NCBI RefSeq assembly: GCF_011320225.1
Contig: NZ_JAAOEN010000003.1
Location: forward strand, 1 to 64,000
Direction: 5' to 3'
Length of the DNA: 64,000 bases
Origin: Phytoactinopolyspora limicola
Lineage (GTDB): Bacteria; Actinomycetota; Actinomycetes; Jiangellales; Jiangellaceae
Positions 14,347 to 44,861 of this stretch are shown one piece after another (position 1 is the stretch's first letter; each line of letters opens with the position of its first letter). The notes beneath the pieces are model-generated. The model saw nothing but the letters and a program-made list of their open reading frames with translations. It was not told the origin of the DNA and did no database searches. The position numbers and the translations under genes are program-made.

Positions 14347-15486
14347 TCAGGTTTCCTCAACCCACTCGGCGATGAGTTGCGCAGCCCATGACCCCAAAGG
14401 TGTAGCCGAACGCGGAACGGCGCAAGGGGTGCCGGAGAACCGAGGCGCGGGGGCTGGTTGTGGTACATCGTCCACTGAGATCACCGTGTCCCGAGTGGCC
14501 GCTCGAGAGCTGGTGGTCACCTCCGGCAGAGTGGCCACCGGGCTCACGCACGCATCCGTGCCGGCGAAGATAGCAGCCCATTCCCGCTGGGAGCGGCGGC
14601 GGAATGCGTTCGTGAACACCCGCCGCATCTCATCCCAGACGGAAGGATCACGGTGCCGGGGAACGGCATGCGCTACACCGAGCAACCGGACGAACTCCCA
14701 GTAGAACTTGGGTTCAAGGGCGCCAACGGCCATGTGTCGCCGATCAGATGTCTCATAGACATCGTAGAAGGGACAACCGGAGTCCAGGAGGTTCGTCCCG
14801 GGTTCAGCCCGCCATTCGCCGGCCGCGTACATGCCGAAGATCATCGTACTCAGATGGGTGACCCCGTCGACGACCGCAGCATCGACGACCTGGCCAGGAC
14901 CGCCGCGCAGGACGTGCTGCCGGGCCGCCAGCACACCGATGACCAGATACAGCGCACCGCCACCGAAGTCACCCAGCAGGTTGAGTGGAACCGGCGGTGG
15001 GCATCCCTGTCGGCCTAGAGCGCCGAGCACACCGGAGGCGGCGAGGTAGGTGATGTCGTGTCCTGCGGTGCCGGCCAGCGGCCCGCTCTGGCCCCACCCC
15101 GTCATCCGGCCGTAGACGAGGGAAGGATGTGCCTGTAGGCAGATGTCGGGGCCGATCCCCAGCCGCTCGGCGACACCTGGACGGAAGCCTTCGAGCAGTA
15201 CGTCGGCGTGGCTGGCCAGCGTCCGGACCAGCGCGCGGCCATCGTTGTCCTTGAGGTCGACGGTCAGGGTGCGTTTACCTCGGTCGAGTATCTGCTGTCC
15301 CTGGGTGGGCAGATCAGCCGGCAGATGCGGCCGGGGCCCGCCTGGTTCGCCTGGCCGCATCACCTTGACCACATCAGCGCCCAGATCCGCCAGCAACATT
15401 CCACCGAACGGCACCGGACCCAGCGCCTCGATCTCCAGTACTCGCAGGCCGGCCAATGGCCCGTTTCCCTGCGCCGAGTTACCCAC
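14347..15486 (-). CDS. CaiB/BaiF-type alpha-methylacyl-CoA racemase homologue
   Basis: 379 aa, GTG start with GGAGG seven nt upstream, overlapping the preceding SDR stop. The order LAGLRVLEIEALGPVPFGGMLLADLGADV, then FRPGVAERLGIGP, is typical of the family. The racemase catalytic pair is present: His143 in GHDITY and Asp173 in GDFGGG, 30 residues apart as in mycobacterial MCR (His126/Asp156). CaiB-type CoA-transferases would instead use an Asp of a different context. I therefore favour epimerisation of 2-methylacyl-CoA thioesters over CoA transfer. It is the last gene of the 13-gene operon and implies a CoA-bound, alpha-methyl-branched intermediate. Confidence 0.85.
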   Translation of the reverse strand: MGNSAQGNGPLAGLRVLEIEALGPVPFGGMLLADLGADVVKVMRPGEPGGPRPHLPADLPTQGQQILDRGKRTLTVDLKDNDGRALVRTLASHADVLLEGFRPGVAERLGIGPDICLQAHPSLVYGRMTGWGQSGPLAGTAGHDITYLAASGVLGALGRQGCPPPVPLNLLGDFGGGALYLVIGVLAARQHVLRGGPGQVVDAAVVDGVTHLSTMIFGMYAAGEWRAEPGTNLLDSGCPFYDVYETSDRRHMAVGALEPKFYWEFVRLLGVAHAVPRHRDPSVWDEMRRVFTNAFRRRSQREWAAIFAGTDACVSPVATLPEVTTSSRAATRDTVISVDDVPQPAPAPRFSGTPCAVPRSATPLGSWAAQLIAEWVEET

Positions 15487-16336
15487 TTGGAGCCTCCGTC
15501 ATGCGGCTGAGTCGGTCGATGGCCTGGGCCATGTCGGCGTGCGGGCTGGTCGGGCCAAGCGGTACGACAGGGCCGACGCTCATGTGTGGCGGGCGGGTCA
15601 CCACCCAGAGCACCGCCGCCGCCACATCATCGGCGGAGAGAAGCTCGTCCGGCGTCGCACCGAGCGAGTCCGGCGGCGGGGAGAGTGGCGTGTGCACCCA
15701 TCCTGGGCATAGCGCGACGGCACGGACCCCGTGTTCGCGGTTCTCCAGCGCTACGGATTCGGTCAGGGCGTTCAACGCACGTTTGCTGGCCGCGTAGCCG
15801 GCTGTGTGGCCGACGGTGCTCATGGCGACAGCCGAACCGATGTTGACGATGGTGCCGGAGCGCTGGCTGCGCATGTGCGGAAGAACGGCTCGGATGATCA
15901 GAAACGGCGCCGTCACGTTCAATCGGAACATCAGATCCCAGTGCCGTGGGCGCAGCTCGTGCACTTGTTGATAGCGAACCACGCCTGCACAGTTGACCAG
16001 CACTTCGGGGGTTCCCACCTGCTGCACGGTCTGTGCGACGACCCGTTCGGGGCCTTCGTCACACGCCAGGTCCATGGCCAGGACGGAGGCTGTCGCACCG
16101 GCCGCACGGATGCCGTCGGCGATCCCGGCGAGCACGTCGGCTCTGCGTGCCACCATGACGACGTGGTAGCCGGCGGCGGCGAGCGTCCTGGCCGTCGCGG
16201 CGCCGATCCCTGAGGAAGCTCCGGTGACGAGTGCGACCGCAGGGTTGGGCGCACCGTCCCGCTCCACCAACGCCGCCCCCGGGGAGACAACGGGCGCACA
16301 GTCGGCAGCCCTGGCCATCGGCCGGCCGGCGGTCAC
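15479..16336 (-). CDS. Short-chain dehydrogenase/reductase
   Basis: 285 aa, GTG start sharing GTGA with the preceding stop. Classical SDR: TGASSGIG cofactor loop, NCAG, NIGSA (catalytic Ser) and YAASK (Tyr/Lys). ARR after the second strand suggests NADP(H). A likely role is 3-ketoacyl thioester reduction in the cluster pathway. The C-terminus lacks the usual GG-rich substrate loop and instead reads VTRPPHMSVGPVVPLGP. Some 25 extra residues precede the Rossmann strand, so an internal start (Met7) is possible. It overlaps the racemase gene by 8 nt. Confidence 0.88.
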   Translation of the reverse strand: MTAGRPMARAADCAPVVSPGAALVERDGAPNPAVALVTGASSGIGAATARTLAAAGYHVVMVARRADVLAGIADGIRAAGATASVLAMDLACDEGPERVVAQTVQQVGTPEVLVNCAGVVRYQQVHELRPRHWDLMFRLNVTAPFLIIRAVLPHMRSQRSGTIVNIGSAVAMSTVGHTAGYAASKRALNALTESVALENREHGVRAVALCPGWVHTPLSPPPDSLGATPDELLSADDVAAAVLWVVTRPPHMSVGPVVPLGPTSPHADMAQAIDRLSRMTEAPSG

Positions 16337-17820
16337 ACCACACCACCGGCCGCCAGTGGGGGCAGACCACCGAGCGCGTACCCGCCATCCGCATGGAGCA
16401 GTGCGCCGGTTACATATGCCGATGCGTCGGATGCCAGGTACGCGGCCAGGGCAGCCACGTCCTGAGGGGCTCCGGCTCGGCCTGCGGGAATCCGGGCCAG
16501 CCAGGCCCGGTGGAAGTCAGTCGACACCACGTCGGCCATCGGCGTATCCACGATGCCGGGGGCCACGCAGTTCGCCCGGACGCCGAAGCGCCCAGCGGTC
16601 GCGGCCACGCAGCGGGTGTACTGGGCCATGGCCGCCTTGCTGGCACCGTAGCTCTCCATCCGCGGGATAGGTACGTTCTGAGCGCCGACCGAACAGATCC
16701 CCACGACCGAACCGCCCCGGTGGTCGCGTGCCCACCGGCGGACGAGTGCCGCGGTCAGCTCCGCGTAGGCGTGATAGTTCACGTCGAGCGACTGGTTTCG
16801 CAACTCCGCCTCCCGGCCCGGGGCGTCGACAGCGAACAGCCCGGTGGCGTACACCATCGTGTCGATTCGGCCTTGCTTCTCCCAGCAACGATCGACGAGG
16901 CCCGCGAGGTCGGACAACCGGCTCACGTCCTGACACCGGACCCACGCACCCTGGCCTAGGGCACGTACCTCGTCGGCGGCGTCTTCGAGTGCCTTCACGC
17001 GCCGGGCGACCAGGGTGATGTCGGCGCCGCGCCGCGCCAGCTCAATGGCCGTCGCCCGGCCGATGCCGCTGCTCGCGCCCACGACGAGAGCATGCCGACC
17101 GCGAAGGTCGTACAGCCGCCCGGCCGCAGCCGACACAGGCTCAGTCGGTTCAGGATCATGGTCGGCACCGTCGGCATGGGTGGCGGAGTCCTTCGACCCG
17201 CCAGTATGCAGCGGGGGTATGAGGGACAGATCCATGCCACCGTCGATCGGGATCGTCTCCGCGACGGTGTAGGAGCAACCTTCCGAGGACAAGAGAAGAA
17301 CCCCGGCGGCCAGATCGATGGGTCGGGCGACTCGACGTAGCGGAAGGTGGCGGACGATCGCGGCGGCACGGTCGGGGCTCGGCCGATGCCCTAGGCTCGG
17401 CGCGAGCCCCACCCGCATCTGGTTGGCGACGACGCCGGACGGCGCTACCTGGGCTGCCATGTGTCGCCACCAGGCGAGGTCCGCTGCACGGGAGGCGACT
17501 TCGTCAAGGGGTACACCTGAGTGCACGCCGCCCTGTCCATCGATCACGAGGACAAGTCGGCCCGAGCCGCGCTCGACCATCCGTTGGGCGAGGCTCGCCA
17601 CCCGTGCGCGGGGTAGCGGTGGCGCCGTTGTGGCCGCATTGAGGACGCTGGTTCCCGTGAGCAGGACGCAGCAGACGTCCGGAACCTCTGCGCCGTCCTC
17701 GTCGACAAGCTTCAGACCCGCGCCCACGAATGCGGCCGAGACCACAGGGTAGCCGGGGCGGTTGTGGTCGAGGATCAACCCGGTCGATCCGTGTGGGCGG
17801 TGCGAATTCAACTCGTTCAC
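16333..17820 (-). CDS. Didomain SDR with degenerate N-terminal half
   Basis: 495 aa. The GTG at 17820 forms a GTGA overlap with the upstream ketosynthase stop; longer upstream starts would lie inside that gene. Residues 1-210 or so look like an SDR lacking its TGxxxGIG loop and YxxxK (the equivalent reads EVASRAADL) but keeping the C-terminal pattern LRRVARPIDLAAGVLLLSSEG with ETIPIDGGMDL. After an acidic linker, the second domain is a complete SDR: VGASSGIG, GICSVGA, YGASK, NCVAPGIVDTPM and ALLHADGGYAL. I read this as a pseudo-SDR fused to an active ketoreductase, analogous in layout to high-molecular-weight FabG. The dead half may bind partner or substrate. Confidence 0.8.
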   Translation of the reverse strand: MNELNSHRPHGSTGLILDHNRPGYPVVSAAFVGAGLKLVDEDGAEVPDVCCVLLTGTSVLNAATTAPPLPRARVASLAQRMVERGSGRLVLVIDGQGGVHSGVPLDEVASRAADLAWWRHMAAQVAPSGVVANQMRVGLAPSLGHRPSPDRAAAIVRHLPLRRVARPIDLAAGVLLLSSEGCSYTVAETIPIDGGMDLSLIPPLHTGGSKDSATHADGADHDPEPTEPVSAAAGRLYDLRGRHALVVGASSGIGRATAIELARRGADITLVARRVKALEDAADEVRALGQGAWVRCQDVSRLSDLAGLVDRCWEKQGRIDTMVYATGLFAVDAPGREAELRNQSLDVNYHAYAELTAALVRRWARDHRGGSVVGICSVGAQNVPIPRMESYGASKAAMAQYTRCVAATAGRFGVRANCVAPGIVDTPMADVVSTDFHRAWLARIPAGRAGAPQDVAALAAYLASDASAYVTGALLHADGGYALGGLPPLAAGGVV

Positions 17821-19115
17821 CGGTCTCCCTCGTGGTATTCCATCAGGACGGACGTTGCGTCGCCGCCGGCGCCGGAGCTGATCAGCAGCGCGTGCCGGCC
17901 CACTATCGGAACGCCGCGGCCGGTGACCGGGGAGGCCGGGAGACGGGAGTACGGCGTACGGCAACCGGTCACCGGCGTGATAGCACCGTTGCGGAACATC
18001 AGCGCCGACGACAGGAACTTGAGGAGGCCGGCGCACCCGGAGATGTGCCCGAACACAGCCTCTTGGTTGCTCAGCAGGAGGTTGCCGTCGTAGCCGAACG
18101 AGGTGCGCAGCGCGGTGAGGACGTCACAGAACAGGTCCTCGATATTGCGGGTTCCCTCTGCGAAGCCGTTGACGAACGCCAGGTCGGCGAGGGTGACTCC
18201 GGACCGATCCAGCAGGTGGCGCACGTCGTGCACGAAGTTGTCCGCGGTCCCCGAGTCGACGGGATTCTGCCCGTTGTTGCGGGACGAGCGGAACCAGAGC
18301 CGCACGCCCGTGCCGTCAGCCGGGGCGCGGGCTCGCTCGGATTCCAGCACGACGGCGAGAGCGCCCTCCCCGGGAGCGTTGCCGTCCTGATGTTCGTCGT
18401 GAGGACGCACGGCCCAGGGATCGCTGGAGAGTGTGGAGGCACGGAAGCCGCGCTTGCCTTCGTGGACGGTGCTGGCGAGGAAGATGGGATCGAGGGTGGC
18501 GTCGGCTCCGACGACCACCGCCCGATCGATGGTGCGAGCCTCGATCATGGTCGTGGCGATCTCTAGCGCACGCATCGAGCAGTTGCAGCCACCAGTGATA
18601 CTCAGCGTCTGAGCGTGGATGCCGAGAAGTGAGCAGATGCCGCTCGCGACGCTGCCGGGCGTTCCCGTGAGCCAGTAGTCCATGCCCAATGTCGCGGGGC
18701 CGCCCTGGTTGTACGCGGCGAAGTACCGGCCGGCCTCCTGGAACGCGTACTGCATGGACGCGATGATCAGAGCCGACCGATCGTCGTTGAGATCAGTCGG
18801 CTCGAGCCCAGCATCAGCGAGAGCGTTCTGCACCGCGCCCATGGACAGCGCGGTGACCCGCGCCATGCGCCGGGCGATCCGCTCGGGCACGCCTGTCTCC
18901 GCCGTGACATCCCAGTCTTGGACCTGTCCGGCGATCCGGAGTGGCAGCGCAGCATGAGAGAACGGCGAGAGCTGGGTTTGCCCGCTACGCAACACGTCCC
19001 ACAAGTCATGCCGGGTGCGGCAGGTACGGCCTTGGCCCGGCAGAACGCTACCCGCGCCGACGAGCCGCAGCGGGTGGGGGCCGGACCCAGTGACCTGAGC
19101 CGGTTCAGGTGCCAT
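17817..19115 (-). CDS. FabF-type ketosynthase with lost HGTxT histidine
   Basis: 432 aa. KAS I/II fold: the active-site Cys is kept in SITGGCNCSMRALEIA, but the first catalytic His motif (normally HGTxT) reads NGFAEGTRNIED, with no His. The Lys-containing motif (normally KxxxGH) reads SNQEAVFGHISGCAG, with Glu for Lys and the second His retained. A PHDEHQDGNAPGEGA segment matches the family PFDxxRDGFxxGEGA region. Loss of His should impair decarboxylation. It overlaps the next ketosynthase by 11 nt and probably pairs with it as a heterodimer. Its role could be acyl transfer, chain-length control or non-decarboxylative condensation. Confidence 0.85.
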   Translation of the reverse strand: MAPEPAQVTGSGPHPLRLVGAGSVLPGQGRTCRTRHDLWDVLRSGQTQLSPFSHAALPLRIAGQVQDWDVTAETGVPERIARRMARVTALSMGAVQNALADAGLEPTDLNDDRSALIIASMQYAFQEAGRYFAAYNQGGPATLGMDYWLTGTPGSVASGICSLLGIHAQTLSITGGCNCSMRALEIATTMIEARTIDRAVVVGADATLDPIFLASTVHEGKRGFRASTLSSDPWAVRPHDEHQDGNAPGEGALAVVLESERARAPADGTGVRLWFRSSRNNGQNPVDSGTADNFVHDVRHLLDRSGVTLADLAFVNGFAEGTRNIEDLFCDVLTALRTSFGYDGNLLLSNQEAVFGHISGCAGLLKFLSSALMFRNGAITPVTGCRTPYSRLPASPVTGRGVPIVGRHALLISSGAGGDATSVLMEYHEGDR

Positions 19116-20469
19116 GCCGGCCTCCCGGCTGTGCGCCGTGTTGGCCGGGGCCGGTCAGTAGGAGGGCACTCACCACACCGCCCATCTGGTAGTTGAAGCT
19201 GAAGGCCAGATCGGTAGGCAACGGTGCCGGATGGTCTCCAACGACCACGGTGAACGGGCAGTCCTCGGCGACCTCCCCGCACCTGGCCGTCGGACAGATC
19301 TCTCCCCGGCGCATCATGAGCAGTGTCGCCGCAGCTCCCACCGCCCCCAGCGGCGCCGCGTTGTGCCCGAAACACGCCTCCTGGTTGCTCACCACCAGGT
19401 CCCCGCAGTCCTGCCCATACAACGTGCGCATGGCGTTGAACTCGGTGACGTTGAACAGTGGATCGCCCTGGGCGCCTCCGTTGACGTAGCGGACCTCCCT
19501 GGGCTCGATGCGCCGGTGGCTCGGGCGGGCCCGCAGACACGTCCGGGCCGCCCGGACGAGGGAGTCGCCGCTCTCGTCGGAGCTCACCGCGCTGGCCAGC
19601 GTGCCCCGCGCCGATCCGTGCGCCAGGACACGGCCGTAGGCCTCGCGGCCACGACGTTCGGCATGCTCGCGGCTTTCGAGCACGAGCGTGGCAGAGCCCT
19701 CGCCGATGTTGAACCCATCGGCATGCTGATCGTAGGGGCGCATCGATCGGTCGAACCGCAGCTTGGTCGGCGGGGAGTCGAACGACGGCCGGTGATCGGT
19801 GCGTTCGGCCACCTCCCGCAGCTCTTCGAAGTGTGCGACCCGATCAAGGTTGAACGAGTCGACCCCGGTGACGACGGCCACGTCGAGCTCGCCGCAGGCG
19901 ATCTGGTTGGCTGCCGTGCCGAGTAGCGCGGCCGACGACGCGCAGCCACACGAGAGGGTGTAGTTGGGGCCGCCGCTGCGCAGGAGCGACGCCTGTACGT
20001 TCGCCACGTCGGTAGCGGTCACGGACACCGCCAGTCTGATGAAGAGCGATCGAGCCGCGGCTGGGCTGACGGTTCCGGGATCGGCCCGCACGCACTCCAG
20101 ATAGGTGTCGAAGGAGTTGTCGACGCCGACGCGTCCGGTGAGCACCCCGGCATCGGCACAGTCGGTGCCCCGCCAGTCGAGCCCAGAGTCGTCACAGGCC
20201 TCCACCAGGGAGAGCAGTCCGAACCGGTGAACATTGGCGTAGTTCTTGAGGTAGCGCTGCGGGATCTCGGGCACTGCCTTGGTGAACTCTTCGTCGTCCA
20301 GAAACACCCGGCCGTAAAAGAAGCCGTCGTTGTCCAGGTTGGACAGCCCGCGGGCCACCGTTGCCCACAGATCGTCAGATGTCCGGACGACGGTCTGCCG
20401 TGGGCCGGGAAGGCAGAAACCCATTCCGGTCACGAGAACGTCGCGTGGCCCAGTGTCGATCTCAAGCAC
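19105..20469 (-). CDS. FabF-type ketosynthase, second member of atypical pair
   Basis: 454 aa, GTG start with GGAGG upstream. The Cys motif is kept (YTLSCGCASSAALL). The HGTxT position reads NGGAQGDPLFN and lacks His. The last motif is SNQEACFGHNAAPLGAVGA, again with Glu in place of Lys and His kept. The shared NQEAxFGH deviation with the downstream ketosynthase shows both belong to one divergent clade, not to classical KS-alpha/CLF pairs, where CLF loses the Cys instead. PYDQHADGFNIGEGSATLVLE is well conserved. No ACP gene is adjacent. It likely forms a complex with the product of 17817-19115. Confidence 0.85.
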   Translation of the reverse strand: MLEIDTGPRDVLVTGMGFCLPGPRQTVVRTSDDLWATVARGLSNLDNDGFFYGRVFLDDEEFTKAVPEIPQRYLKNYANVHRFGLLSLVEACDDSGLDWRGTDCADAGVLTGRVGVDNSFDTYLECVRADPGTVSPAAARSLFIRLAVSVTATDVANVQASLLRSGGPNYTLSCGCASSAALLGTAANQIACGELDVAVVTGVDSFNLDRVAHFEELREVAERTDHRPSFDSPPTKLRFDRSMRPYDQHADGFNIGEGSATLVLESREHAERRGREAYGRVLAHGSARGTLASAVSSDESGDSLVRAARTCLRARPSHRRIEPREVRYVNGGAQGDPLFNVTEFNAMRTLYGQDCGDLVVSNQEACFGHNAAPLGAVGAAATLLMMRRGEICPTARCGEVAEDCPFTVVVGDHPAPLPTDLAFSFNYQMGGVVSALLLTGPGQHGAQPGGRHGT

Positions 20470-20496
20470 AGTGTCCTCCGTCGACTAGACATGTGT

Positions 20497-21324
20497 TCAT
20501 ATGGCGCCGCCGTCGATGCCCACCGACTGGCCGGTGATCCCGGAGGAAAAGTCGGACAAGAGGTACGCGATGAGATGGGCTACCTCGGTCGCGGAGAGCA
20601 GTCGCCGCAGAGCTGTGTTGCGCACGGCGTGCCGCACGTAGCGCTCCCAGGTCAGGCCATCGAGTCCATGGTGTTCGGCCAGGCTGGCGATGAAGTCGCG
20701 GCCATATCGCTCGCCCTCGTCCAGGCCGGGGGTGTCGACGAGGCCGGGGAGGACGGCGTTCACCCGCACACCGAACGGGCCGAGCTCGAGGGCGAGCGAC
20801 TCGGCCAGTCCGCGCAAGCCGAACTTCGACGCACAGTAGGCCGTGTTGGCCGGTATCCCGCGTCGGCCAGCGACGGAGGACACGATGACGATGCTGCCCG
20901 ATGCACGTTCCATCATGGTCGGCACCACCAAGCGGCAGACGCGGAATGCTCCGGTGAGATTGACGTCCAGGGTGTGCTGCCAGTTCTCTTCGGTCTGATC
21001 GACGAGGAATGCCTGCCGCATTCCGTATCCGGCGTTGCTGACCAAGAGGTCAACCGGTCCGAACCTGTCGACACACCGTGCGACCGCACTCTCGACGGCG
21101 TCGGGGTCACGGAGATCCGCGGGTGCGACGCAGGCACGACCGCCGGCGTCGGCGATCTCCTTGCGGACTGCTTCGAGCGCGGGCTCGTTGCGGCTCAACA
21201 GGGCCACGGCAGCCCCTTCACCGGCGATCACCCGAGCCGTCTCGGCGCCGATGCCGCTGCTGGCGCCGGTGACGAGGGCCGTTCGTCCGGTCAAGGACTG
21301 TCTCGTCGCAGGTGGCACGTTCAC
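20497..21324 (-). CDS. Short-chain dehydrogenase/reductase (FabG-like)
   Basis: 275 aa, GTG start. Complete classical SDR: TGASSGIG, SNAG, SSVAG with catalytic Ser, YCASK with Tyr/Lys, VNAVLPGLVDTPG, and the C-terminal SSGITGQSVGIDGGAI typical of FabG-like ketoreductases. SRNE after strand two favours NADPH. An insertion (GERYGRDFIASLAEHHGLDGL) lengthens the substrate lid, suggesting a bulky acyl substrate. It lies 27 nt downstream of the ketosynthase pair in the sense of shared transcription, so 3-ketoacyl thioester reduction is the most likely job. Confidence 0.9.
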   Translation of the reverse strand: MNVPPATRQSLTGRTALVTGASSGIGAETARVIAGEGAAVALLSRNEPALEAVRKEIADAGGRACVAPADLRDPDAVESAVARCVDRFGPVDLLVSNAGYGMRQAFLVDQTEENWQHTLDVNLTGAFRVCRLVVPTMMERASGSIVIVSSVAGRRGIPANTAYCASKFGLRGLAESLALELGPFGVRVNAVLPGLVDTPGLDEGERYGRDFIASLAEHHGLDGLTWERYVRHAVRNTALRRLLSATEVAHLIAYLLSDFSSGITGQSVGIDGGAI

Positions 21325-21360
21325 TGTTGGTCAGCCTTTCCAGGGATGGCGCACGTGGGA

Positions 21361-22356
21361 TCACAACCGGAAGAGCAAGGCGCCCTCGAAGAACCCGGAG
21401 CCGATAGCCGGGGTGAGGTAGAGCTGACCCGGCCGGGTTCGCCCACTCAGAAGTAGCTCGGATAGCGCGACGGGGATGGAGGCGCTCGAGGTATTGGCGC
21501 GGCTTTCGATCGTCACGACGAACCGGGCCTGATCGATGCCGACCTTCTCTTGGACGGCGTGGTGAATTGGATCCGTCGCCGGGTGCGGCAGGACCCAGTC
21601 GACGTCGTCGATCGTCAAGCCGTTGCGGGCGAGCATCTCCTCGACGACGCGTACGTTGCCATCGATCGCGCGTTCGACGATCTCGGGTCTGCTGGTGATC
21701 CAGCCGTCCGGCTTGCGCGCCCAAATCATCTGAGCACTCTCCCCGTCGCTGATCAGCAGTGAGTCGATGAGCCCAGCGGCGCCGTGGCCGGCGTCCTGGA
21801 GGTCGTGCCGTTCGAGAACTACGGCCCCGGCAGCGTCGCCGGCGACCAACTCGCCTTTGCTGCCGGGGCGGGTCCGCCTGGAGAACTGCTCGGAGCATGT
21901 GATCACCGCGACGTGCCAGCTACGCATGGCGATCAACATCGCGGCGGCGGTCTGTACCCCGTGCACGAAACCGGTGCAGGCGCCGCAGAGATCGAAGCCG
22001 AGGGCGTTGGAGGCACCGAGCCGGCTGGCCACGGTCGGTCCCAGCTCTGGCACCCACTGCCGCTCGGTCCAGTTGGTGACGATGACGAGGTCGATGTCTT
22101 CCGGGGCTCGTCCGGCACTCCGCAAGGCATGGTGAGCGGCGTGCACGGCCATGTAGTCGACGGTCTCTTGCTCGTTGGCGATGTGTCGGGACTTGACGCC
22201 GAGCCTTCCGATCACCGCCTGATCGACCGGGTTGAACCGGCCTTCGGTCGCCGCGGGGGTGTTGTGTTCGACGTGTTTGGGGAAGTAGTGGCCGATTCCC
22301 GTCAGCCGGAGTCCAGAGTGCGTCCATATGCCGCCGACCCGTTCCGTCACGGTCAT
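21361..22356 (-). CDS. FabH-like 3-oxoacyl synthase III
   Basis: 331 aa, ATG with AAGGAGACGGAT upstream. The thiolase-fold KAS III triad is intact: Cys in LCGACTGFVHG, His in VLPHPATDP and Asn in SRANTSSASIP. The end GSGFFEGALLFRL resembles the family end GGGLTWGA. Such enzymes condense acyl-CoA with malonyl thioester or perform acyl transfer. It is a close paralogue of the product of 24141-25154 (same N-terminal GIGHYFPK/GFGHYYPE start and same SRxTRPGSK/SRRARPGSK loop). It lacks the usual partner ACP gene nearby, so CoA thioesters or the housekeeping ACP must serve. Confidence 0.9.
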   Translation of the reverse strand: MTVTERVGGIWTHSGLRLTGIGHYFPKHVEHNTPAATEGRFNPVDQAVIGRLGVKSRHIANEQETVDYMAVHAAHHALRSAGRAPEDIDLVIVTNWTERQWVPELGPTVASRLGASNALGFDLCGACTGFVHGVQTAAAMLIAMRSWHVAVITCSEQFSRRTRPGSKGELVAGDAAGAVVLERHDLQDAGHGAAGLIDSLLISDGESAQMIWARKPDGWITSRPEIVERAIDGNVRVVEEMLARNGLTIDDVDWVLPHPATDPIHHAVQEKVGIDQARFVVTIESRANTSSASIPVALSELLLSGRTRPGQLYLTPAIGSGFFEGALLFRL

Positions 22357-22386
22357 ATCCGTCTCCTTTGCGCTGAAAGCGATGTG

Positions 22387-23196
22387 TCATCGACCGGTGA
22401 ACTGTGGCTCGCGCCGCTCGAGATAGGCGGCCGGGCCTTCGGTTCCGTCCTCGGTCTCGGTGCAGGCACGCACGTGGTAGAGGTCCTGCATACGCAGGCC
22501 ATACTCGATCGGCTGCCCCCAGGTCCTCTCACGCAGCTCTTTGAATAGGGCGATGGCCTTCGTTGGGGCGTGCGCGAGCCGCCGACCCAGGTCCGCCGCC
22601 GCGCGATCGAAGGAGTCGTTGGCGACAACCCGGTCCACGAGACCGATCCGCAGTGCCTCGTCCGCCTCGACGAGCCGTCCGGTCAGAAAGATCTCGGTGG
22701 CTCTGGCTGGCCCCACGACTCGGGCCAGCATGACCGCGTTGCCAAGGTGACCGAGGTGAATGAGGCCGCTACCGATGCGTGCCCGCCCACTAGCCAGCCG
22801 GTAGTCAGCCGCGCAGGCGATCTCCGCTCCGGCTCCGACCGCGGCGCCGTCGATCGCCGCGATGGTGGGTTTCGGTGCTTGGATCATCGCTTCGCAGATT
22901 CTGAGATAGAAGGCGTCTCCGGTTTCGGGGAAGGAGGGAGTGTGCGCTCGTTCGCCCTCGACCAGCTCACGTAACCCCGAGATGTCGTCGCCAGCGCAGA
23001 AACAGTGGTCGGTGCCGGTGAGCAGCACTGCCCGCACGGCCGAGTCGTGAGATGCTCGCACCACCGCTTCCAACAGGCGCGTGCCTAGCTCCCGGTCGAG
23101 TCCGTGCCGCCGGTGCGGCCGGTTCAGCCGAAGGGTGGTCAATCCGTCGGCGTGTTCTTCGTGGAGCACGGCGCCGGTTTGGTCGAGAGGGTCCAT
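22387..23196 (-). CDS. Enoyl-CoA hydratase/isomerase (crotonase) family protein
   Basis: 269 aa, ATG start. The crotonase oxyanion-hole segment is FCAGDDISGL, followed by AAIDGAAVGAGAEIACAADYRLAS, which keeps the first acidic residue (Glu of AGAEI). The second canonical Glu (usually PEIxLG) is replaced: the segment reads IGSGLIHLGHLGNA. With one Glu missing, simple hydration is less likely than isomerisation, decarboxylation or dehydration with an altered mechanism. It sits mid-operon between KAS III and SDR genes; a role in removing the 3-hydroxy group or shifting a double bond is inferred. Confidence 0.88.
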   Translation of the reverse strand: MDPLDQTGAVLHEEHADGLTTLRLNRPHRRHGLDRELGTRLLEAVVRASHDSAVRAVLLTGTDHCFCAGDDISGLRELVEGERAHTPSFPETGDAFYLRICEAMIQAPKPTIAAIDGAAVGAGAEIACAADYRLASGRARIGSGLIHLGHLGNAVMLARVVGPARATEIFLTGRLVEADEALRIGLVDRVVANDSFDRAAADLGRRLAHAPTKAIALFKELRERTWGQPIEYGLRMQDLYHVRACTETEDGTEGPAAYLERREPQFTGR

Positions 23197-23295
23197 GGGT
23201 CTTCCGTTCGTTAGCTGACGGGTGTCGTCGTCGGGGCGAGGCCGGGGCGGGGGACCGACAGCTGCCAGCCCGTCAGAACCCGGGGCCGGTCTGCG

Positions 23296-24093
23296 TCACG
23301 TGATCCGGGCAGGGAAACCACCTCCGGACACCTCGAGCACCGTGCCGGTGAGATAGGTGTTGTCAACGGCGTGTTGTACCGCCGCCGCGATCTCGCTCTC
23401 CTCGGCGAATCGTCGTAGCGGCACCTGATGGCGAAGTCGCTCGATGAATCGACCGTGTGCGGGATTGTCGGCGCTCTTCTCCCGCAGCGCTTGTCCGTTG
23501 ACGACTCCGGGTGCAACGGCGACGACGCGTACTCCGAACTCAGCTAACTCGAGCGCCCAGCTGCGAGTGAGCGACACTACGCCCGCCTTGGCGGCGGCGT
23601 ATGCGGATTGCCCCCACGAGCCTGGCCACGTGGAACTGGCGATCGGCACGATCACTCCTGGTGTGCCGGCCTGCGCCATGGTGAGGGCAGCGTGCCGGCC
23701 CACCAGGAAAGTCCCAGTGAGGCAAAGGTCGATGATCTCTTGCCATTCCCCGGTACCGTGCATCGACCACGCGTCGCCGTCGTGCCGCGGCGCGCGGATC
23801 AGCTGCTTCGACAGGTTCCGGCCGGCGGCCATGACACACACTCCGAGTGGGCCGCCCTGAGCGATGTCGGTGAACAGGCGGGCAACGCTGCTCGGGCTGG
23901 TGACGTCGACCTCGGCGGCGGCTAGGTGCCGGCCCTGAGCGGCCGCCTGCCCAATGGAGTGGTCGAGCTGGGTCCGGCGCCGGGCCGCTATAGTCGTCGG
24001 CCACCCCGCCTCGGCAAGGGTCTGTGCCACCGCCGCGCCGATACCTCGGCTGCCGCCGACGACGAGCGCCCGCGCTTGGTGTTGCGGCGTCAC
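23296..24093 (-). CDS. Short-chain dehydrogenase/reductase
   Basis: 265 aa, GTG start with GGAGGAGG just upstream. GGSRGIG cofactor loop, MAAG (for NNAG), IASSTW with catalytic Ser, YAAAK with Tyr/Lys, VVAVAPGVVNG and YLTGTVLEVSGGGF at the end. AARRR favours NADPH. An insertion between strands four and five (LIRAPRHDGDAWSMHGTGEW) is unusual. A ketoreductase role is inferred from its position between KAS III and crotonase genes. A 99-nt gap separates it from the crotonase gene, the largest inside the operon. Confidence 0.88.
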   Translation of the reverse strand: MTPQHQARALVVGGSRGIGAAVAQTLAEAGWPTTIAARRRTQLDHSIGQAAAQGRHLAAAEVDVTSPSSVARLFTDIAQGGPLGVCVMAAGRNLSKQLIRAPRHDGDAWSMHGTGEWQEIIDLCLTGTFLVGRHAALTMAQAGTPGVIVPIASSTWPGSWGQSAYAAAKAGVVSLTRSWALELAEFGVRVVAVAPGVVNGQALREKSADNPAHGRFIERLRHQVPLRRFAEESEIAAAVQHAVDNTYLTGTVLEVSGGGFPARIT

Positions 24094-24140
24094 CTAGACC
24101 TCCTCCATCTCTGCGTCGGGTTGGTTGTCGTGTCTTCTCG

Positions 24141-25154
24141 TCACAGGCGGAACAGGAGGGCACCGTGGTACCAGCCGGCGCCGATGGCCGGGCTGAGGAC
24201 GAGGTCCTCTGGGCGGAACATGCCGGCATCGCTGAACTCCGACAGCACCACCGGTATCGAGGCGCTCGCGGTGTTGCCACGGTCATGGAAGTTGACCAAG
24301 AAGCGCTCGTCCGCTACCCCGAGCTTGTCGCGCAGTCTCTCGTTGACGGCGTCGGTTCCCGGATGTGGAACCACCCAGTCGACGTCGTCGACGGTGTATC
24401 CGGAGCGTTCCAGGACGTGACGGCAGGCATCCACCATGTCAGCCGCCGCATGGTCGGCCAGCTCCGCGCGGCTGGTGATCCACGCGTCCGGGGTCCGCAC
24501 GGTCACCAGGTCCGCGCGGCTCCCGTCGCTGCGAACGATCGAGTCGAGCAGTCCGCCGCGGCCGCTGGCTGTGCGCTCGAGCACAACCGCGCCAGCTGCG
24601 TCGCCGCAGATGAGCTCGCTCTTACTGCCTGGACGTGCCCGTCGGCTGAACCGTTCGGAGGACACGACGACGGCGTATCGGAGCTCGGGCATCGCAACCA
24701 GAGAGGCAGCGGCCAGTTGGACACCATGAACGAAACCCACACAGGCCGCCGAAACATCGAAGGCGAACGCCGACGTGGCACCGAGCAGTTCGGCGACCTG
24801 CGGTGCGTGATCGGGCAGGTAGGGCGGGTCCGTCCAGTTGCTGACGACGAGAAGGTCGAGGTCGTCGGCGGCCAGCCCGGCATGGCCGAGGGCCGCGCGG
24901 GCCGCATGGCTGGCCATGAACGCGACGCTCTCGTGATCACCGGCGACGTGGCGCGAGCTGACGGTCACCCGGCCGAGGACGGCGGTGTCGACGACGTTGC
25001 CCGGTCGCCGATATGAGTGGACGTCGTTTCGGACGAGGCGCTCGGGGTAGTAGTGGCCGAAGCCGGTAATCGCCAGGCCCGCGGCGATCCACCGGGGCGT
25101 GCTGCCGGGGCCCCGCTGCGGGTAAGAGAGCGCCGCTGTGGTGGACCTACTCAT
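24141..25154 (-). CDS. FabH-like 3-oxoacyl synthase III
   Basis: 337 aa; ATG start overlapping the preceding KAS III stop by 8 nt. Intact triad: Cys in VSAACVGFVHG, His in VVPHPGTDAV and Asn in RGNTASASIP. Paralogue of the 21361-22356 protein, also ending GALLFRL. An N-terminal extension of some 25 residues precedes the first strand. The family either primes chains from acyl-CoA or transfers acyl groups to other nucleophiles. Tight overlap with the next KAS III suggests equimolar synthesis, perhaps a heteromeric complex. Confidence 0.9.
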   Translation of the reverse strand: MSRSTTAALSYPQRGPGSTPRWIAAGLAITGFGHYYPERLVRNDVHSYRRPGNVVDTAVLGRVTVSSRHVAGDHESVAFMASHAARAALGHAGLAADDLDLLVVSNWTDPPYLPDHAPQVAELLGATSAFAFDVSAACVGFVHGVQLAAASLVAMPELRYAVVVSSERFSRRARPGSKSELICGDAAGAVVLERTASGRGGLLDSIVRSDGSRADLVTVRTPDAWITSRAELADHAAADMVDACRHVLERSGYTVDDVDWVVPHPGTDAVNERLRDKLGVADERFLVNFHDRGNTASASIPVVLSEFSDAGMFRPEDLVLSPAIGAGWYHGALLFRL

Positions 25155-26220
25155 GGTCGCCTCCTCGCGGGCGGCCGTAGCTGAAGAGCATCGCCCCCCA
25201 GCTGAATCCCCGCCCGATGGCCATGCTGAGGATGCGGTCGCCGCGTTGCACGCGACCGCCGTGGACGTATTCCGATAGGCAGCCGGGCACGCTGACGCTC
25301 GACGTGTTGCCGCGGCGGTCGATGTTGAGAAGAACCCGTGGGTCCTCGGTGATCCCGAGCCCTTCCTGCACCTGGCGGATGAGATTGAGATTTCCCTGGT
25401 GCGGCACTATCCAATCGACGTTCTGCGGCCTCAGGCCAGTGTTGCCCAGCACCCGGCGTGCCGCGTCGATGAGCATGCCGGGGGCGACGTCGCCCACGAG
25501 CCGCCCTTTCATCAGCATCTTGTCCTGCGAGTCGATGTCGAACGCGTCGTAGTGGGTCGCGTCGGAGGACAAGGTCAAGGCGTGTAGGCCGTCTGACAGC
25601 TGGCCGGGCTCTTGGAGTGCGACGTCGGCACGCCACACAGCGGCTGCGGCGCCCCCTCCGAAGAGCACCGAGTTGCGAAAGGAGAAGTTCAGAATCGGCC
25701 GGGGGTTCTCGGCGCAGACGACGAGCACGTTGCGTGCTTGAGCGGTGGCGATGAGACCACGAGCCACCAGGCTCGCATGCATGAACCCGGCGCAGGCCAC
25801 CCCCATCACATCCAGGCACATCGCCGTCCCCGCACCAATACGGCGTTGTACCGGCAACGCCACGTCCATGTAGTTGTTGCCCGGACTCGTCGGGTTGACG
25901 CGCGGCCTCGACGTCGCACTGGTGCCGATGATGGCGTCGATGCTGGAAGGCTCGACGCCCGCGTCGTCCAGGGCCATCCACACCGCACGCTCCGCGGTGT
26001 CGACATGCCGCTCGCCATCGGGGAGCCAGTGCCGAGTGTGCACCCCGGTGTTGCGAACGATCCAGTCGTCGTCGACGTCGAGCCCGAGCTCTCGGGAGAA
26101 ATAGCCGTTCTCGATCGGCTCGCCCGGGAAGTCATGTCCGATCCCGTCGAGGACCATCAGGACTCCCGGCCGGGCCGATGTGCCAACTGCGGGCGAGACC
26201 TGACCTGTCCGTGTCGTCAT
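25147..26220 (-). CDS. FabH-like 3-oxoacyl synthase III
   Basis: 357 aa with ATG at 26220, chosen for its ATGA overlap with the CoA-transferase stop; a much longer open frame to 27366 is antisense-frame noise over that gene. Triad: Cys in GVACAGFMHA, His in VPHQGNLNLI and Asn in RRGNTSSVSVP. It is closer to canonical FabH than its two neighbours (WIVRNTGVHTRHW near residue 50). Being first of the three synthases after the CoA-transferase, it may accept the newly made acyl-CoA as starter. That order-based role is inference. Confidence 0.9.
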   Translation of the reverse strand: MTTRTGQVSPAVGTSARPGVLMVLDGIGHDFPGEPIENGYFSRELGLDVDDDWIVRNTGVHTRHWLPDGERHVDTAERAVWMALDDAGVEPSSIDAIIGTSATSRPRVNPTSPGNNYMDVALPVQRRIGAGTAMCLDVMGVACAGFMHASLVARGLIATAQARNVLVVCAENPRPILNFSFRNSVLFGGGAAAAVWRADVALQEPGQLSDGLHALTLSSDATHYDAFDIDSQDKMLMKGRLVGDVAPGMLIDAARRVLGNTGLRPQNVDWIVPHQGNLNLIRQVQEGLGITEDPRVLLNIDRRGNTSSVSVPGCLSEYVHGGRVQRGDRILSMAIGRGFSWGAMLFSYGRPRGGDHE

Positions 26221-27944
26221 CGGTAGACCCCCTCGGGGTCGATGGATCGCAGCAGTGCCAGCTCGGGGGTGGTGAGCGGCGGCTCGTGGCGCAGGCGTCG
26301 CGCGACCCCGGAGCCCCACGCGGTGAGTTGTGCCACGGCGTCGACCGGTGCCAGGCCGGCGACCCGCGGCGCGGGGAACCAGGTCGTGAGCGTGAATGGC
26401 TCCGTGCCGCCGTCCCGCTCGAACTCGCCAAAGTCGGCGACGACCCAGCGCACAGTCCGTCCGGGTGAGGTGATGAAGTCGACGGCCGGCACGTACCGGG
26501 CGGGTGAGGCAGGTGCCACGATCATGGTGTCGACATGGCTCGCCACGTCGTTGGCGCCGCCCGAGCCGACGAGGAAAGCACCGCTGGACGTCCGGCTGGT
26601 GTTGACGTTGCCGAGCACGTCGATCTGAGCCGCCGACAGGACGCCGAGGGTGCGCCCGCGGTCGCCCGCGACCAGGCCGCCGAGCACGTCGAGAGTGCCA
26701 GCCAGCAGACGGGCTCGGGCGACGTGCCGCTGGGAGAAGAGAAAGGTGTCTCCCGGCTCCGGCGTGAAGTCGATCATGCCGAGCTCGTTCACCAGGTCGA
26801 CATGCACCCCGGATGTCTCGAGCTGGTGCGCCGCTAGCCAGCACGCGAGGTGGGAGACTCCAAGACCAGCGAGCACGGTTCGATACCCACGGCTCTCGAC
26901 GGCCCTGGCGATCGCTCGGGCGGCCATGACGACGTGCCATTCCCGGTCTGAGGCGGCGCCTGAAGCCACCTTGGTCGGGCCTCGGGCGCGTACGGCCGCC
27001 GGCGGCGAGGCAAGCGTCGCGGCCGGCACGTCGACGGTCAACGCGGCGAGCCTGGTCGGGCCGAGCCGGTCGAGATAGCCATCGTGGCCTCCAGATCCGG
27101 AGACCCATTGCCGAAACCACTCCCGGCAGGTGGCCGGGTGGACGCAGGCGGCCGCGAGGTCGGTGAGAAAGGCGTAGTCGTCCAGGTAACCAACGACGTC
27201 CGTGCCGGGCATTGGCGACAGACCCTGGGGATGTGCACCGAACGGACAAACGGCGACACCCAGGACACGCTCGGCCGGCACCACGGTGACGGCCCCGGGA
27301 GGTGCCTGGTCGCATACCGCCTCCACGGTCGCGAGCACGCCTTGCCGGGCGGCCAGGGCGCCCCACCAGCCTTCACCGGCCGGGCCGCTCAGGTAGAGAT
27401 TCCCGAGCTGGTCGGCGTAGTGGGCATGGAGCAGGGTGACGTCTGGGGTGAGCGGCGGGACCAGGACGGCCGGGCGGGCGCCGCTCGTGTCGGTGGACAC
27501 GACGGGGAGCGGGGCGGCGCGTCCGGTCGGAAGCGACGAGCCGACGAGCGAGCCGGTGACGGCGCCTGGTGTCTGGGTGGCCCCGGCCACGAGCCGCTGA
27601 AGGAGAGACAACAGGCTCCACTCCTCGACGGGGAACGGTACTCCCTCGGGAAGCCGCGCGTAGAGGGGATTGGGCCGCGCGGATGGCACCGTGTCGCCGG
27701 CGAAGCAGGTCACCGCCCTCGAGATGACGCCGGCCATGACCAGGGCATGCATGGATGCGTGCATCGCGTTGACGCTGACCTCGAACGTTCCGCGTCTTGC
27801 GAAGCTCCGGGCTACGGCCAGGACGAGGGCGTTGGGGCGCGACATGGTCGATGCGACATGCAGATGCAGACCCGAGGTCAGGTGGTCAGCACACAACTCG
27901 TCGACGTTGCGAGCGAGACGAATGCCAGGCGCTGGAGTGGTCAT
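26217..27944 (-). CDS. Fused alpha/beta family-I CoA-transferase
   Basis: 575 aa. The N-terminal half (to about 330) resembles alpha subunits of glutaconate/3-oxoacid CoA-transferases (LVGSSLPTG, DVTLLHAHYADQLGNLYL). The C-terminal half resembles beta subunits (GLGVSHLACWLA, VNELGMIDFTPEPGD, QIDVLGNVNTS, VGSGGANDVASHVDTMIV). Separate subunits are the family norm, so this is a natural fusion. The Glu in VNELG is in the place expected for the catalytic Glu, but IpdAB-type relatives act as hydrolases, so transferase versus ring-opening hydrolase is unresolved. In this operon it probably loads CoA on a carboxylic acid. It is 52 nt after the first ketosynthase gene. Confidence 0.8.
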   Translation of the reverse strand: MTTPAPGIRLARNVDELCADHLTSGLHLHVASTMSRPNALVLAVARSFARRGTFEVSVNAMHASMHALVMAGVISRAVTCFAGDTVPSARPNPLYARLPEGVPFPVEEWSLLSLLQRLVAGATQTPGAVTGSLVGSSLPTGRAAPLPVVSTDTSGARPAVLVPPLTPDVTLLHAHYADQLGNLYLSGPAGEGWWGALAARQGVLATVEAVCDQAPPGAVTVVPAERVLGVAVCPFGAHPQGLSPMPGTDVVGYLDDYAFLTDLAAACVHPATCREWFRQWVSGSGGHDGYLDRLGPTRLAALTVDVPAATLASPPAAVRARGPTKVASGAASDREWHVVMAARAIARAVESRGYRTVLAGLGVSHLACWLAAHQLETSGVHVDLVNELGMIDFTPEPGDTFLFSQRHVARARLLAGTLDVLGGLVAGDRGRTLGVLSAAQIDVLGNVNTSRTSSGAFLVGSGGANDVASHVDTMIVAPASPARYVPAVDFITSPGRTVRWVVADFGEFERDGGTEPFTLTTWFPAPRVAGLAPVDAVAQLTAWGSGVARRLRHEPPLTTPELALLRSIDPEGVYR

Positions 27945-27996
27945 CCGGTACCGCCCGCCACGTCGCGGGGCCCAGCGTGGCTACGTCGCCCGCCGG

Positions 27997-29280
27997 TCAT
28001 GCCGCGGCCTCGAGGACCACGGCCGAGCTCTGGCTGCCGATGGCGAAGGACAGGGACAACGCCAGCTGAACCTTTCCCGGACGGGGCCCTTCGGTGACGT
28101 GGTCATGATCACATTCAGGTTCGGCGATCTCGCAGTTGATGGTCGGGGCCAGGCACTGGTGGCGAAGCATCAGCGCGATGGCGGCGCAGTTCATCAGTCC
28201 GGCCGCCCCGAGGAGATGCCCGTAGATCGGCTTGATGGAGCCTAGGGGCGCCCAGGTAGAGCGCCGTGGCCCGAAGAGGTGTGACAGCGCACGGCTCTCG
28301 GCGACGTCGTTGTATCGCGTAGCGGTGCCATGGCCACAGATGTAGTCGAGATCGTGCGGAGCCCGGCCGGTCGCGTCGAGCGCCTGGTTCATCATGGTGG
28401 CCGATGTCCGGCCCGAGAGGTCCATCCGAGTGGCGTGAGCAGCCTCGTTGATGCTGTGGTAGGCACGTAGCGACGCATATGGCCGCGCGCCTCGGGCGAG
28501 TGCGTGAGGCGCCCGCTCTAGCACCATCACCACGGCACCTTCGCCCAGCGCAAATCCGTCGCGATGGACGTCGTACGGTCGGATGGCCCGTTGCGGCTCG
28601 GTCTCCCGAGTCAAAACGCTGCTGCCGGGTGAGGAGTACAGCTGCAACAGTTCGGGAACGAGCGGGAGCTCGTGGCCGACGACGAACATGACGTCGGCGC
28701 GGCTCTCCTGGAGCTCGTGGGCGGCGATGCCTAGCGCCTGGTGTCCGCCTACGCAGGCGTTGGCGATCGTAGTGACCAGGCCGCGGGCGCCCAGCTGCAC
28801 GGCGCTCAATGCCGCGGGTGTCCCCGGCAGGGACGCGAAGATGGACTGGGTCACGGAGATCGGTGGCACGTCGGGGTTGAACGTCCGGCCCGAGGCCGTC
28901 TGTGACCACCACTCGACGGGCCCGCGGGCGCTGGAGGCGACCACTCCGGTGCGGTCAGGGGTGATGTGGTCGAGCCCGGCGTCCAGGGCGGCGTTCCGTA
29001 CGGCGGACAGCACGATCAAGATGTCACGGCTGTACCGTTTCGCGAAGCCGTCGGGCAGCCCGGGCACGTAGCGCTGGTGGTGGAAGACGTGGATTCGCCC
29101 TGCGCTGTGGACTCCGGTCTGGCCACGCAAGGTCGCTGGCAGCTGGCTCAGTTGGGATAGCCCGCTGCCGAGGTGGTGCCAGACGTCGTCCGGGGTGTCC
29201 GCGTGCGGCAAGATGAATCCGAGCCCACTGATGACGACATCGCGAAATGCGGCCGCTTGTGCATGATTGCGCCCCACCAT
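27997..29280 (-). CDS. Canonical FabF-type ketosynthase, first gene of the operon
   Basis: 427 aa. The ATG at 29280 has AGGGGA seven nt upstream; longer frames extend into the promoter. All catalytic motifs are present: Cys in TIANACVGGHQALGIA, His in CGHGTATRYND, and Lys/His in GSIKPIYGHLLGAAG, plus RPYDVHRDGFALGEGA. It is therefore the one FabF-type enzyme in the cluster expected to perform normal decarboxylative elongation. It is the promoter-proximal gene of the 13-gene minus-strand operon, divergent from a crotonase-exporter operon. Confidence 0.92.
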   Translation of the reverse strand: MVGRNHAQAAAFRDVVISGLGFILPHADTPDDVWHHLGSGLSQLSQLPATLRGQTGVHSAGRIHVFHHQRYVPGLPDGFAKRYSRDILIVLSAVRNAALDAGLDHITPDRTGVVASSARGPVEWWSQTASGRTFNPDVPPISVTQSIFASLPGTPAALSAVQLGARGLVTTIANACVGGHQALGIAAHELQESRADVMFVVGHELPLVPELLQLYSSPGSSVLTRETEPQRAIRPYDVHRDGFALGEGAVVMVLERAPHALARGARPYASLRAYHSINEAAHATRMDLSGRTSATMMNQALDATGRAPHDLDYICGHGTATRYNDVAESRALSHLFGPRRSTWAPLGSIKPIYGHLLGAAGLMNCAAIALMLRHQCLAPTINCEIAEPECDHDHVTEGPRPGKVQLALSLSFAIGSQSSAVVLEAAA

Positions 29281-44825: not shown

Positions 44826-44861
44826 CGCGCTATCACTCCTTATGGTGTCATCTCGGCCCAA

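Follow-up and report, generated by a model that had tools for sequence, protein, structure and literature searches.

How do six ketosynthases build a chain when no acyl carrier protein (ACP) is encoded beside them? The question is raised by a block of 13 genes on the minus strand, at positions 14347-29280, of the 64,000-nucleotide stretch of Phytoactinopolyspora limicola DNA analyzed here (the window, positions 1-64000 of its contig, in a draft genome of 6.59 Mb). An earlier note on this DNA saw in the block a coenzyme A (CoA)-tethered builder of a methyl-branched, partly unsaturated acyl product, or one that borrows the housekeeping ACP. We assign the locus, with a probability of about 0.78, to the macrotetrolide/pamamycin class, as a type II polyketide cluster that is non-iterative and ACP-free and acts on CoA thioesters. 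Its product is best read as 2-methyl hydroxy acids, probably containing tetrahydrofuran, joined as esters. The CoA-tethered, methyl-branched part of the older description is still the best reading, with an encoded racemase that fits a 2-methyl branch, while the unsaturated acyl product found no support, because two ketosynthases without their first catalytic histidine and a crotonase point to cyclized hydroxy acids joined by ester bonds.

Six synthases and no carrier protein in one operon

Every gene of the block was supported by Pfam or NCBIfam matches, and the order of transcription is KAS1-CoAT-FabH1-FabH2-SDR1-ECH-FabH3-SDR2-KAS2-KAS3-SDRd-SDR4-CAIB. We recovered the counts of the earlier note in full, namely three ketoacyl-synt, three ACP_syn_III and four short-chain dehydrogenase/reductase (SDR) genes, one crotonase (ECH), one fused class-I CoA-transferase (CoAT) and one racemase (CAIB). 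Adjacent genes overlap by up to 11 bases or are separated by up to 99, so an ACP gene cannot fit between them. Pfam families were assigned to the genes at positions 3-48945, and genome-wide searches covered the remainder of the window. A PF00550 search of the whole genome gave no match in the window and located matches in three other places: between FabH-like and FabF-like genes, beside genes resembling an aromatic type II polyketide synthase (PKS), both as read from the open reading frames, and in a 1081-aa frame on the window's own contig, some 570 kb away from the cluster. Since the window starts where the contig does, about 13.6 kb can be seen on that flank of the cluster; the PF00550 count covers the whole genome and removes most of this doubt. 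The claim that the operon holds neither an ACP nor a gap for one is thus confirmed, and a home-made ACP profile, described below, agrees with it.

The gene set recurs in other actinobacteria

With CoAT, KAS3 and FabH3 as queries, no genome other than that of P. limicola itself was found among the 22 genomes sampled from its order and the 393 of the class sample. A CoAT scan of genome contigs identified two further loci, in Streptomyces sp. GESEQ-4 (61%) and Allosalinactinospora lopnorensis (52%). The order in GESEQ-4 is KAS1-CoAT-FabH1-SDR1-CocE/NonD hydrolase-acyl-CoA ligase-FabH3-KAS2-KAS3-SDRd-SDR4-truncated racemase, with the response regulator next on the opposite strand and a second hydrolase-ligase pair upstream of the cluster. 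A. lopnorensis has ECH-KAS1-CoAT-FabH1-FabH2-SDR1-SDR2-KAS2-KAS3 (frame-broken)-esterase-ligase-hydrolase (broken)-ECH; SDRd, SDR4 and the racemase are absent at that place, and the broken hydrolase is 50-64% identical to that of GESEQ-4. Both KAS3 and the CocE/NonD-like hydrolase of A. lopnorensis (L047/L048) are split across reading frames, by decay or by draft errors. The GESEQ-4 racemase (L045, 15230-15904) is a 224-aa protein without the central stretch that bears the His and Asp motifs.

A KAS2 profile was positive in 44 of the 392 genomes in the genus of G228, which we take to be Streptomyces (each best match at or below 3.6e-114), and regions taken from 36 of these 44 were compared with the window proteins. 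One Streptomyces-like genome (G478, group A) has the window's gene order at 60-74% identity, except for the response regulator (48%); a hydrolase and a ligase are added and FabH2 is absent, and the racemase, the ABC transporter and the response regulator are present. Seven genomes (G436, G555, G665, G399, G587, G514 and G502, group B) show a nonactin-like order, KAS1-CoAT-FabH1-FabH3-SDR1-SDR2-KAS2-KAS3-SDRd-SDR4-NonD hydrolase, with five ketosynthase and four ketoreductase genes; a ligase and a crotonase follow the hydrolase in five, and the stretch ends at the hydrolase in the other two. The three pamamycin-like genomes fetched (G626, G764 and G692, group C) share KAS1-CoAT-FabH-FabH1-SDR1-FabH-KAS2-SDRd-SDR4, then a ligase (beyond the stretch end in G764), together with a divergent KAS2-FabH-ACP trio, and G482, which was not fetched, shows the same double match. 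Their totals are seven ketosynthases and one ACP; the abstract of the pamamycin paper reportedly gives seven and one for pamamycin. Mixed variants occur in G731 and G500. The other 23 of the 36 genomes have a lone KAS2 homologue with a KAS1-type match of 24-31% in the stretch (23/23), and a type I-like ACP end in 21 of them. That the gene set turns up again in other genera speaks against chance assembly.

In the two named relatives, PF00550 matched nothing on the 91.7 kb contig that carries the A. lopnorensis cluster, nor, in GESEQ-4, anything closer to the cluster than about 840 kb. The home-made profile, built from 25 ACP stretches (23 from lone-KAS2 loci and two from the P. limicola genome), detected an ACP in all three pamamycin-like loci, which were outside its seed, and one of these ACPs also matches PF00550 at 52.9 bits. 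Across the window, G478, GESEQ-4, A. lopnorensis and the seven group B loci, the best value that the same profile reached was E 0.063; in G500 it gave one match (8.6e-6), inside a long frame. When both own-genome seeds were removed the two were still recovered, and the third place appeared at E 0.016 only.

Outside these groups, the single KAS1 outlier of the class sample, G228 (about 47-48% identity), was discarded as a relative: the neighbors at this locus (L038/L039) are KASIII-like, AMP-binding, LuxC-type reductase and MFS genes, which make it a different cluster, and no CoA-transferase matched within the 40 kb fetched. Against plasmids, KAS3 gave 55 records, and the 20 of these that were listed showed about 25-28% identity. 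An 88 kb plasmid of Streptomyces sp. NBC_00388 carries a KAS1-CoAT-KASIII block (49, 44 and 48%; L126, 14733-18897) along with an AfsA-related hotdog protein, a HAD hydrolase and an SDR; it is otherwise a different cluster with the same starter-like cassette.

Two ketosynthase families have lost the first catalytic histidine

The FabF-type ketosynthases KAS1 (27997-29280), KAS2 (19105-20469) and KAS3 (17817-19115) belong to separate families. In a tree of 63 rows, with all members of groups A, B and C and FabF controls (an earlier build had 48 rows), the clades were KAS1 (16 rows, 100/98), KAS2 (23 rows, 100/100) and KAS3 (12 rows, two of them pieces from A. lopnorensis, 100/100), each on one side of a branch and apart from the FabF controls. 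The window proteins share their clades with the nonactin-like group; the three pamamycin-like genomes are represented in the KAS1 and KAS2 clades, and KAS3 was not found there. The catalytic residues differ. KAS1 has Cys-His-His in 16/16 rows at or above 39% identity and is predicted to form C-C bonds. KAS2 rows of at least 39% identity have Cys-Gly-His (34, the window protein included) or Cys-Ala-His (10), a count that leaves out 12 distant rows, 11 of them Cys-His-His. The ten intact KAS3 rows have either Cys-Phe-His (window, G478 and GESEQ-4) or Cys-Tyr-His (the seven of group B), and the A. lopnorensis pieces, judged by eye, show Cys, Phe and His.

The first catalytic histidine is thus lost throughout the sampled KAS2 and KAS3 families, which points to the formation of ester (C-O) rather than C-C bonds. 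In the acyltransferases CerJ and Pau29 the loss of this histidine from the ketosynthase triad has been linked to ester formation, and in CerJ to acyltransfer in place of condensation, while NonJ and NonK are cited as ester-forming (PMC4425429; also PMC10006239). CerJ and Pau29 share this loss with KAS2 and KAS3 but are KAS III-like, whereas the window pair is FabF-type. We regard KAS2 and KAS3 as predicted ester-forming synthases, and the loss of the first histidine in 44/44 KAS2 and 10/10 intact KAS3 rows can be tested as a mark of such ketosynthases.

The remaining three synthases, FabH1 (25147-26220), FabH2 (24141-25154) and FabH3 (21361-22356), are KAS III proteins and all have Cys-His-Asn, as do 38 of 42 rows compared (three Cys-His-Gln, in group C, and one Cys-His-His, in G500). 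A FabH tree of 30 rows, sampling three of the seven group B and two of the three group C loci, places FabH1 in one family (100/99) and FabH2 and FabH3 together in another (100/100), in which FabH2 pairs with the proteins of G731 and A. lopnorensis and FabH3 with those of G478 and GESEQ-4. The window has both types, against a single one in G478, in GESEQ-4, in A. lopnorensis and in each of the seven nonactin-like clusters; the group B protein may be of either type.

The lone KAS2-family synthases of these 23 genomes are His-less, with Cys-Gly-His or Cys-Ala-His, and have type I PKS-like sequence next to them, for example in G723 (L096, 8891-10399) and G756 (L108, 9839-11311); in the two loci inspected it forms a frame of about 2,100 aa. 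A stand-alone His-less ketosynthase partnering a modular PKS would be worth identifying.

A CoA-transferase, a racemase and the tailoring enzymes

CoAT (26217-27944) is a fused A and B protein whose nearest relatives are glutaconate CoA-transferases. Its profile (14 rows) gave as best PDB matches glutaconate CoA-transferase A (68.5 bits) and B (43.7 bits), followed by 5mzw (40.1 bits), which we take to be AibA, succinyl-CoA:3-ketoacid CoA-transferases (31.9 bits) and 6coj (29.7 bits), presumably IpdA; with the window protein alone, 5mzw ranked first for the A half. Glu387 is invariant in 14/14 aligned rows (G399, matched in two pieces, was left out) and aligns to a Glu of GctB that we assume to be the catalytic one. 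Judged from its sequence, CoAT has the A and B halves and the glutamate of a class-I glutaconate-type CoA-transferase. The protein is present in 15/15 clusters (seven of group B, three of group C, G478, G731, GESEQ-4, A. lopnorensis and the window) and absent from the fetched part of G500.

CAIB (14347-15486) is a racemase by a wide margin on sequence comparison, with PDB matches of 317-331 bits to racemases and no more than 113 bits to family-III CoA-transferases, and its identification as an alpha-methylacyl-CoA racemase holds. It shares GHDI and (A/G)DFGGG stretches with chains 2g04 and 8rmw in two alignments, and we presume that the His and Asp of these stretches are catalytic. Among the 20 of 151 papers listed by a literature search on methylacyl-CoA racemases together with type II PKSs, none contains the racemase term. 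We also considered whether the racemase stands in for the ligase found in related clusters and dropped this, since G478 and G731 have both.

Four SDR genes complete the set. SDR1 (23296-24093; 48-68% to its homologues in related clusters) and SDR2 (20497-21324) are ketoreductase-like, SDRd (16333-17820; 39-64%) consists of an SDR-like first half with no Pfam match and a full SDR, and SDR4 (15479-16336) is an SDR; SDR2 and SDR4 also have homologues in the related clusters. ECH (22387-23196; 54-69% to related-cluster crotonases) is a candidate NonS-type enzyme that may form a ring by oxa-Michael addition. The family search recognized no dedicated enoyl reductase in the operon, where an SDR could take that role, and Pfam matched neither a thiolase nor an acyl-CoA dehydrogenase there.

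Comparison with nonactin and pamamycin

The earlier note held that type II fatty acid and polyketide systems need an ACP and knew of no described pathway with this gene set. The first statement has a known exception in the literature, and the second does not hold. The nonactin PKS is described as an ACP-less, non-iterative type II system that starts from succinyl-CoA and malonyl-CoA and passes through a 4,6-dioxo intermediate; its tetrahydrofuran ring is formed by NonS, a homologue of enoyl-CoA hydratase (PMC4979870). A second source counts five ketosynthases, four ketoreductases and no ACP, and names homologues of NonS, NonL ligase, NonJ and NonK as genes 4, 5, 9 and 10 of the ten-gene din cluster (PMC10817512). 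The ACP-free class is rare but known, and the window holds a variant with its own gene set, as judged from a limited set of literature searches, and probably with its own product.

Like the nonactin cluster of Streptomyces griseus (non; MIBiG BGC0000243/BGC0000252), the window cluster is ACP-less and type II, with multiple ketosynthases and four ketoreductase genes; its crotonase is a candidate NonS-type enzyme. Its adjacent KAS2/KAS3 pair would sit at the place of nonKJ, a gene-pair name that appears in the title of a cited reference, and has lost the first histidine. The core proteins of the seven nonactin-like clusters are 42-63% identical to those of the window, and their crotonase, in five of them, 54-55%. 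Reversing the group B order brings the crotonase, ligase, KAS3 and KAS2 into the relative positions of din genes 4, 5, 9 and 10, provided that these numbers follow the DNA. The window cluster differs in having six ketosynthases rather than five, a racemase and another gene order, and in lacking both the NonL acyl-CoA ligase and the CocE/NonD hydrolase, the family of which NonD, we assume, is the nonactin member.

The pamamycin genes (pam; Streptomyces alboniger) are given in the orders pamA,B,D,E,O,K,J,M,N,L,H and pamF,G,C (PMC10644645); pamC encodes an ACP, with a succinyl-CoA starter and malonyl-type extenders (PMC8176718), and the route is said to run through 3-oxoadipyl-CoA (PMC10731712). 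As far as these orders could be followed (pamH was not compared), group C fits pamA,B,D,E,O,K,J,M,N,L and pamF,G,C. The window shares with this system the KAS1-CoAT-KASIII-KASIII-SDR core, the His-less KAS2 family and the SDRd/SDR4 pair. The pamamycin-like clusters differ in their ACP (pamC), ligase and second, divergent KAS2-KASIII pair, of which the window has none, and Pfam showed no pamX/Y-type aminotransferase or methyltransferase among the window genes up to 48945. Among the closest relatives are the G478 and GESEQ-4 clusters, near-identical in order and with core proteins, where present, 57-74% identical to those of the window; both have the ligase and the CocE/NonD hydrolase but lack FabH2, and in GESEQ-4 ECH and SDR2 are absent at their places and the racemase is truncated. 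The comparison with known clusters, as suggested earlier, thus best places the cluster in the nonactin/pamamycin class, and it departs from the nonactin-like members by a sixth ketosynthase, a racemase and the missing ligase and hydrolase.

Proposed pathway and its alternatives

In the pathway we propose, each synthase would act once. KAS1 and the FabH proteins would form C-C bonds from acyl-CoA and malonyl- or methylmalonyl-CoA, starting probably, like nonactin and pamamycin, with succinyl-CoA. If the route is like theirs, the carboxylate left free on the succinate unit would have to become a thioester before the next extension, and this suggests a role for a glutaconate-type CoA-transferase: in a dicarboxylic intermediate, CoAT may carry CoA over from the beta-keto thioester to the carboxylate at the succinate end, which would open that end to extension as well, and the beta-keto acid set free in this way might decarboxylate. 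The KAS1-CoAT-KASIII block on the NBC_00388 plasmid hints at this two-end scheme. The SDRs would reduce keto groups, the NonS-like crotonase would close the tetrahydrofuran ring by oxa-Michael addition, the racemase may epimerize 2-methyl-acyl-CoA, the His-less KAS2 and KAS3 would link hydroxy-acyl units by ester bonds, and the ABC transporter encoded nearby would export the product. The window has four full-triad and two His-less ketosynthases, compared with three and two in group B, so one more extension or another starter route would be expected here.

Several observations weigh against this pathway or limit it. The acyl-CoA ligase is absent among the window genes scanned, with a best match of 31% elsewhere in the genome, although 12 of the 15 related clusters fetched have it (the stretches of G665, G587 and G764 end before its place). 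The CocE/NonD hydrolase, present in G478, GESEQ-4, A. lopnorensis (broken) and the seven nonactin-like clusters, is also missing from the window cluster (best elsewhere in the genome 231 bits, against 469 for the GESEQ-4 protein), and the pamamycin-like, G731 and G500 stretches showed none. Not every member of the class is ACP-free, given the ACP of the pamamycin-like relatives. For the twelve relatives other than GESEQ-4 and A. lopnorensis, where weak local PF00550 matches are possible, the absence of an ACP rests on a crude motif scan and the home-made profile; the motif scan gave two matches in G478 and one in G555, which we read as lying in SDR genes or antisense. KAS2 and KAS3 join through long branches, possibly falsely, and we draw nothing from the join. 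A structure prediction of CoAT from three rows was of low confidence (mean pLDDT 31.9). The nonactin- and pamamycin-like labels reflect gene order and content rather than Non or Pam sequences, which leaves one-to-one names unproven, and one source instead gives nonactin two ketosynthases and two ketoreductases (PMC8621525).

The missing ligase and hydrolase have three possible explanations: the intermediates stay on CoA, a remote ligase steps in, or function is being lost. If the cluster were decayed or incomplete it would be non-functional after the loss of both genes, and the related clusters do have the ligase; the broken frames of A. lopnorensis and the truncated GESEQ-4 racemase indicate that decay or draft error occurs in this group. 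In the window, on the other hand, 13/13 frames are open, the catalytic residues of the KAS, FabH and CoA-transferase proteins are intact and the tight operon spacing is retained; open frames and intact residues favor a functional cluster, and we consider decay unlikely. Just as unlikely, in our estimate, is a set of ordinary type II synthases that borrow in trans the ACP of fatty acid synthesis or that of the second type II PKS locus. FabH enzymes normally accept malonyl-ACP, ACP genes lie in both contexts elsewhere in the genome, and the pamamycin-like relatives carry their own. This explanation is opposed by the lack of an ACP near the cluster in the P. limicola genome, the two named relatives, G478 and the seven nonactin-like loci, by the CoA-transferase, racemase and crotonase families, which act on CoA thioesters, and by the published description of nonactin as ACP-less (PMC4979870, PMC10817512).

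Two further explanations seem much less probable. The resemblance of the KAS, FabH, SDR, crotonase and racemase proteins to fatty acid enzymes would suit an operon making methyl-branched fatty acids for lipids, but this is very improbable given that KAS2 and KAS3 lack the decarboxylation histidine, that neither an ACP nor a dedicated enoyl reductase was recognized, that an ABC transporter and a response regulator travel with the cluster, and that its distribution is sporadic, with only the own genome positive in the order and class samples. A catabolic operon that degrades rings or dicarboxylates through CoA thioesters deserves slightly less credence still: distant CoAT homologues (31-39%) do occur on Rhodococcus and Azoarcus plasmids, the one examined lying among beta-oxidation-like genes, and the presumed IpdA, 6coj, appeared in the CoAT profile search at 29.7 bits, but six synthases, two of them His-less, and an operon with no thiolase or acyl-CoA dehydrogenase match do not fit degradation.

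Within the preferred macrotetrolide/pamamycin-class assignment, a more specific scheme can tentatively be outlined, which we hold to be possible but doubtful: a fully ACP-free, CoA-tethered line growing at both ends by the CoAT flip, with a sixth synthase and a racemase, making an undescribed macro-ester. No ligase would be needed in such a line because the intermediates would never leave CoA. That CoAT enables growth from both ends of succinyl-CoA is testable. The locus extends a rare, little explored class of PKS to a further actinobacterial lineage and, as a clean set, lends itself to tests of how polyketides are assembled in the absence of an ACP. Such loci may be under-counted, as antiSMASH at its default setting is reported to miss the nonactin cluster (PMC8621525); a type II PKS catalogue (PMC10132072) does not mention nonactin, macrotetrolide or pamamycin in its main text.

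Flanking genes and other observations

By sequence comparison, conservation extends beyond the 13 genes: a response regulator is encoded on one side (13614-14240) and an ABC transporter on the other (30809-32754), and both recur with the cluster. The regulator, a LuxR-type protein by Pfam, is encoded on the plus strand and convergent with the operon, and has counterparts beside the cluster in G478 (48%) and GESEQ-4 (44%). The transporter, also on the plus strand, consists of an ATPase (30809-31957; 60% in G478 and 53-60% in five of the seven nonactin-like clusters), a candidate for export or self-protection, and its partner, an ABC-2 membrane protein (31954-32754; 60% in G478 and 35-39% in the same number of nonactin-like clusters). 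Between operon and transporter lies a second, divergent crotonase (29656-30420, plus strand), whose membership of the cluster is uncertain; homologues occur beside the G731 cluster (67%) and after the GESEQ-4 cluster (49%). Scans of the window for promoters and terminators returned nothing informative.

Further along the window, positions 41582-48945 form an unrelated neighborhood of lipid type, which encodes an FAD-linked oxidase, an SDR, a TetR protein and, carrying a HAD domain, a fatty-acyl-reductase-like (Male sterility) protein. An ARAGORN tRNA call at 6078-6170 has an undefined anticodon, lies inside a long open frame and is probably false. Toward the contig end, the GC content falls to about 57% at positions 4001-8000, compared with 65-70% in the cluster, and a DUF4838/glycosyl-hydrolase-type protein is among the genes of that segment.

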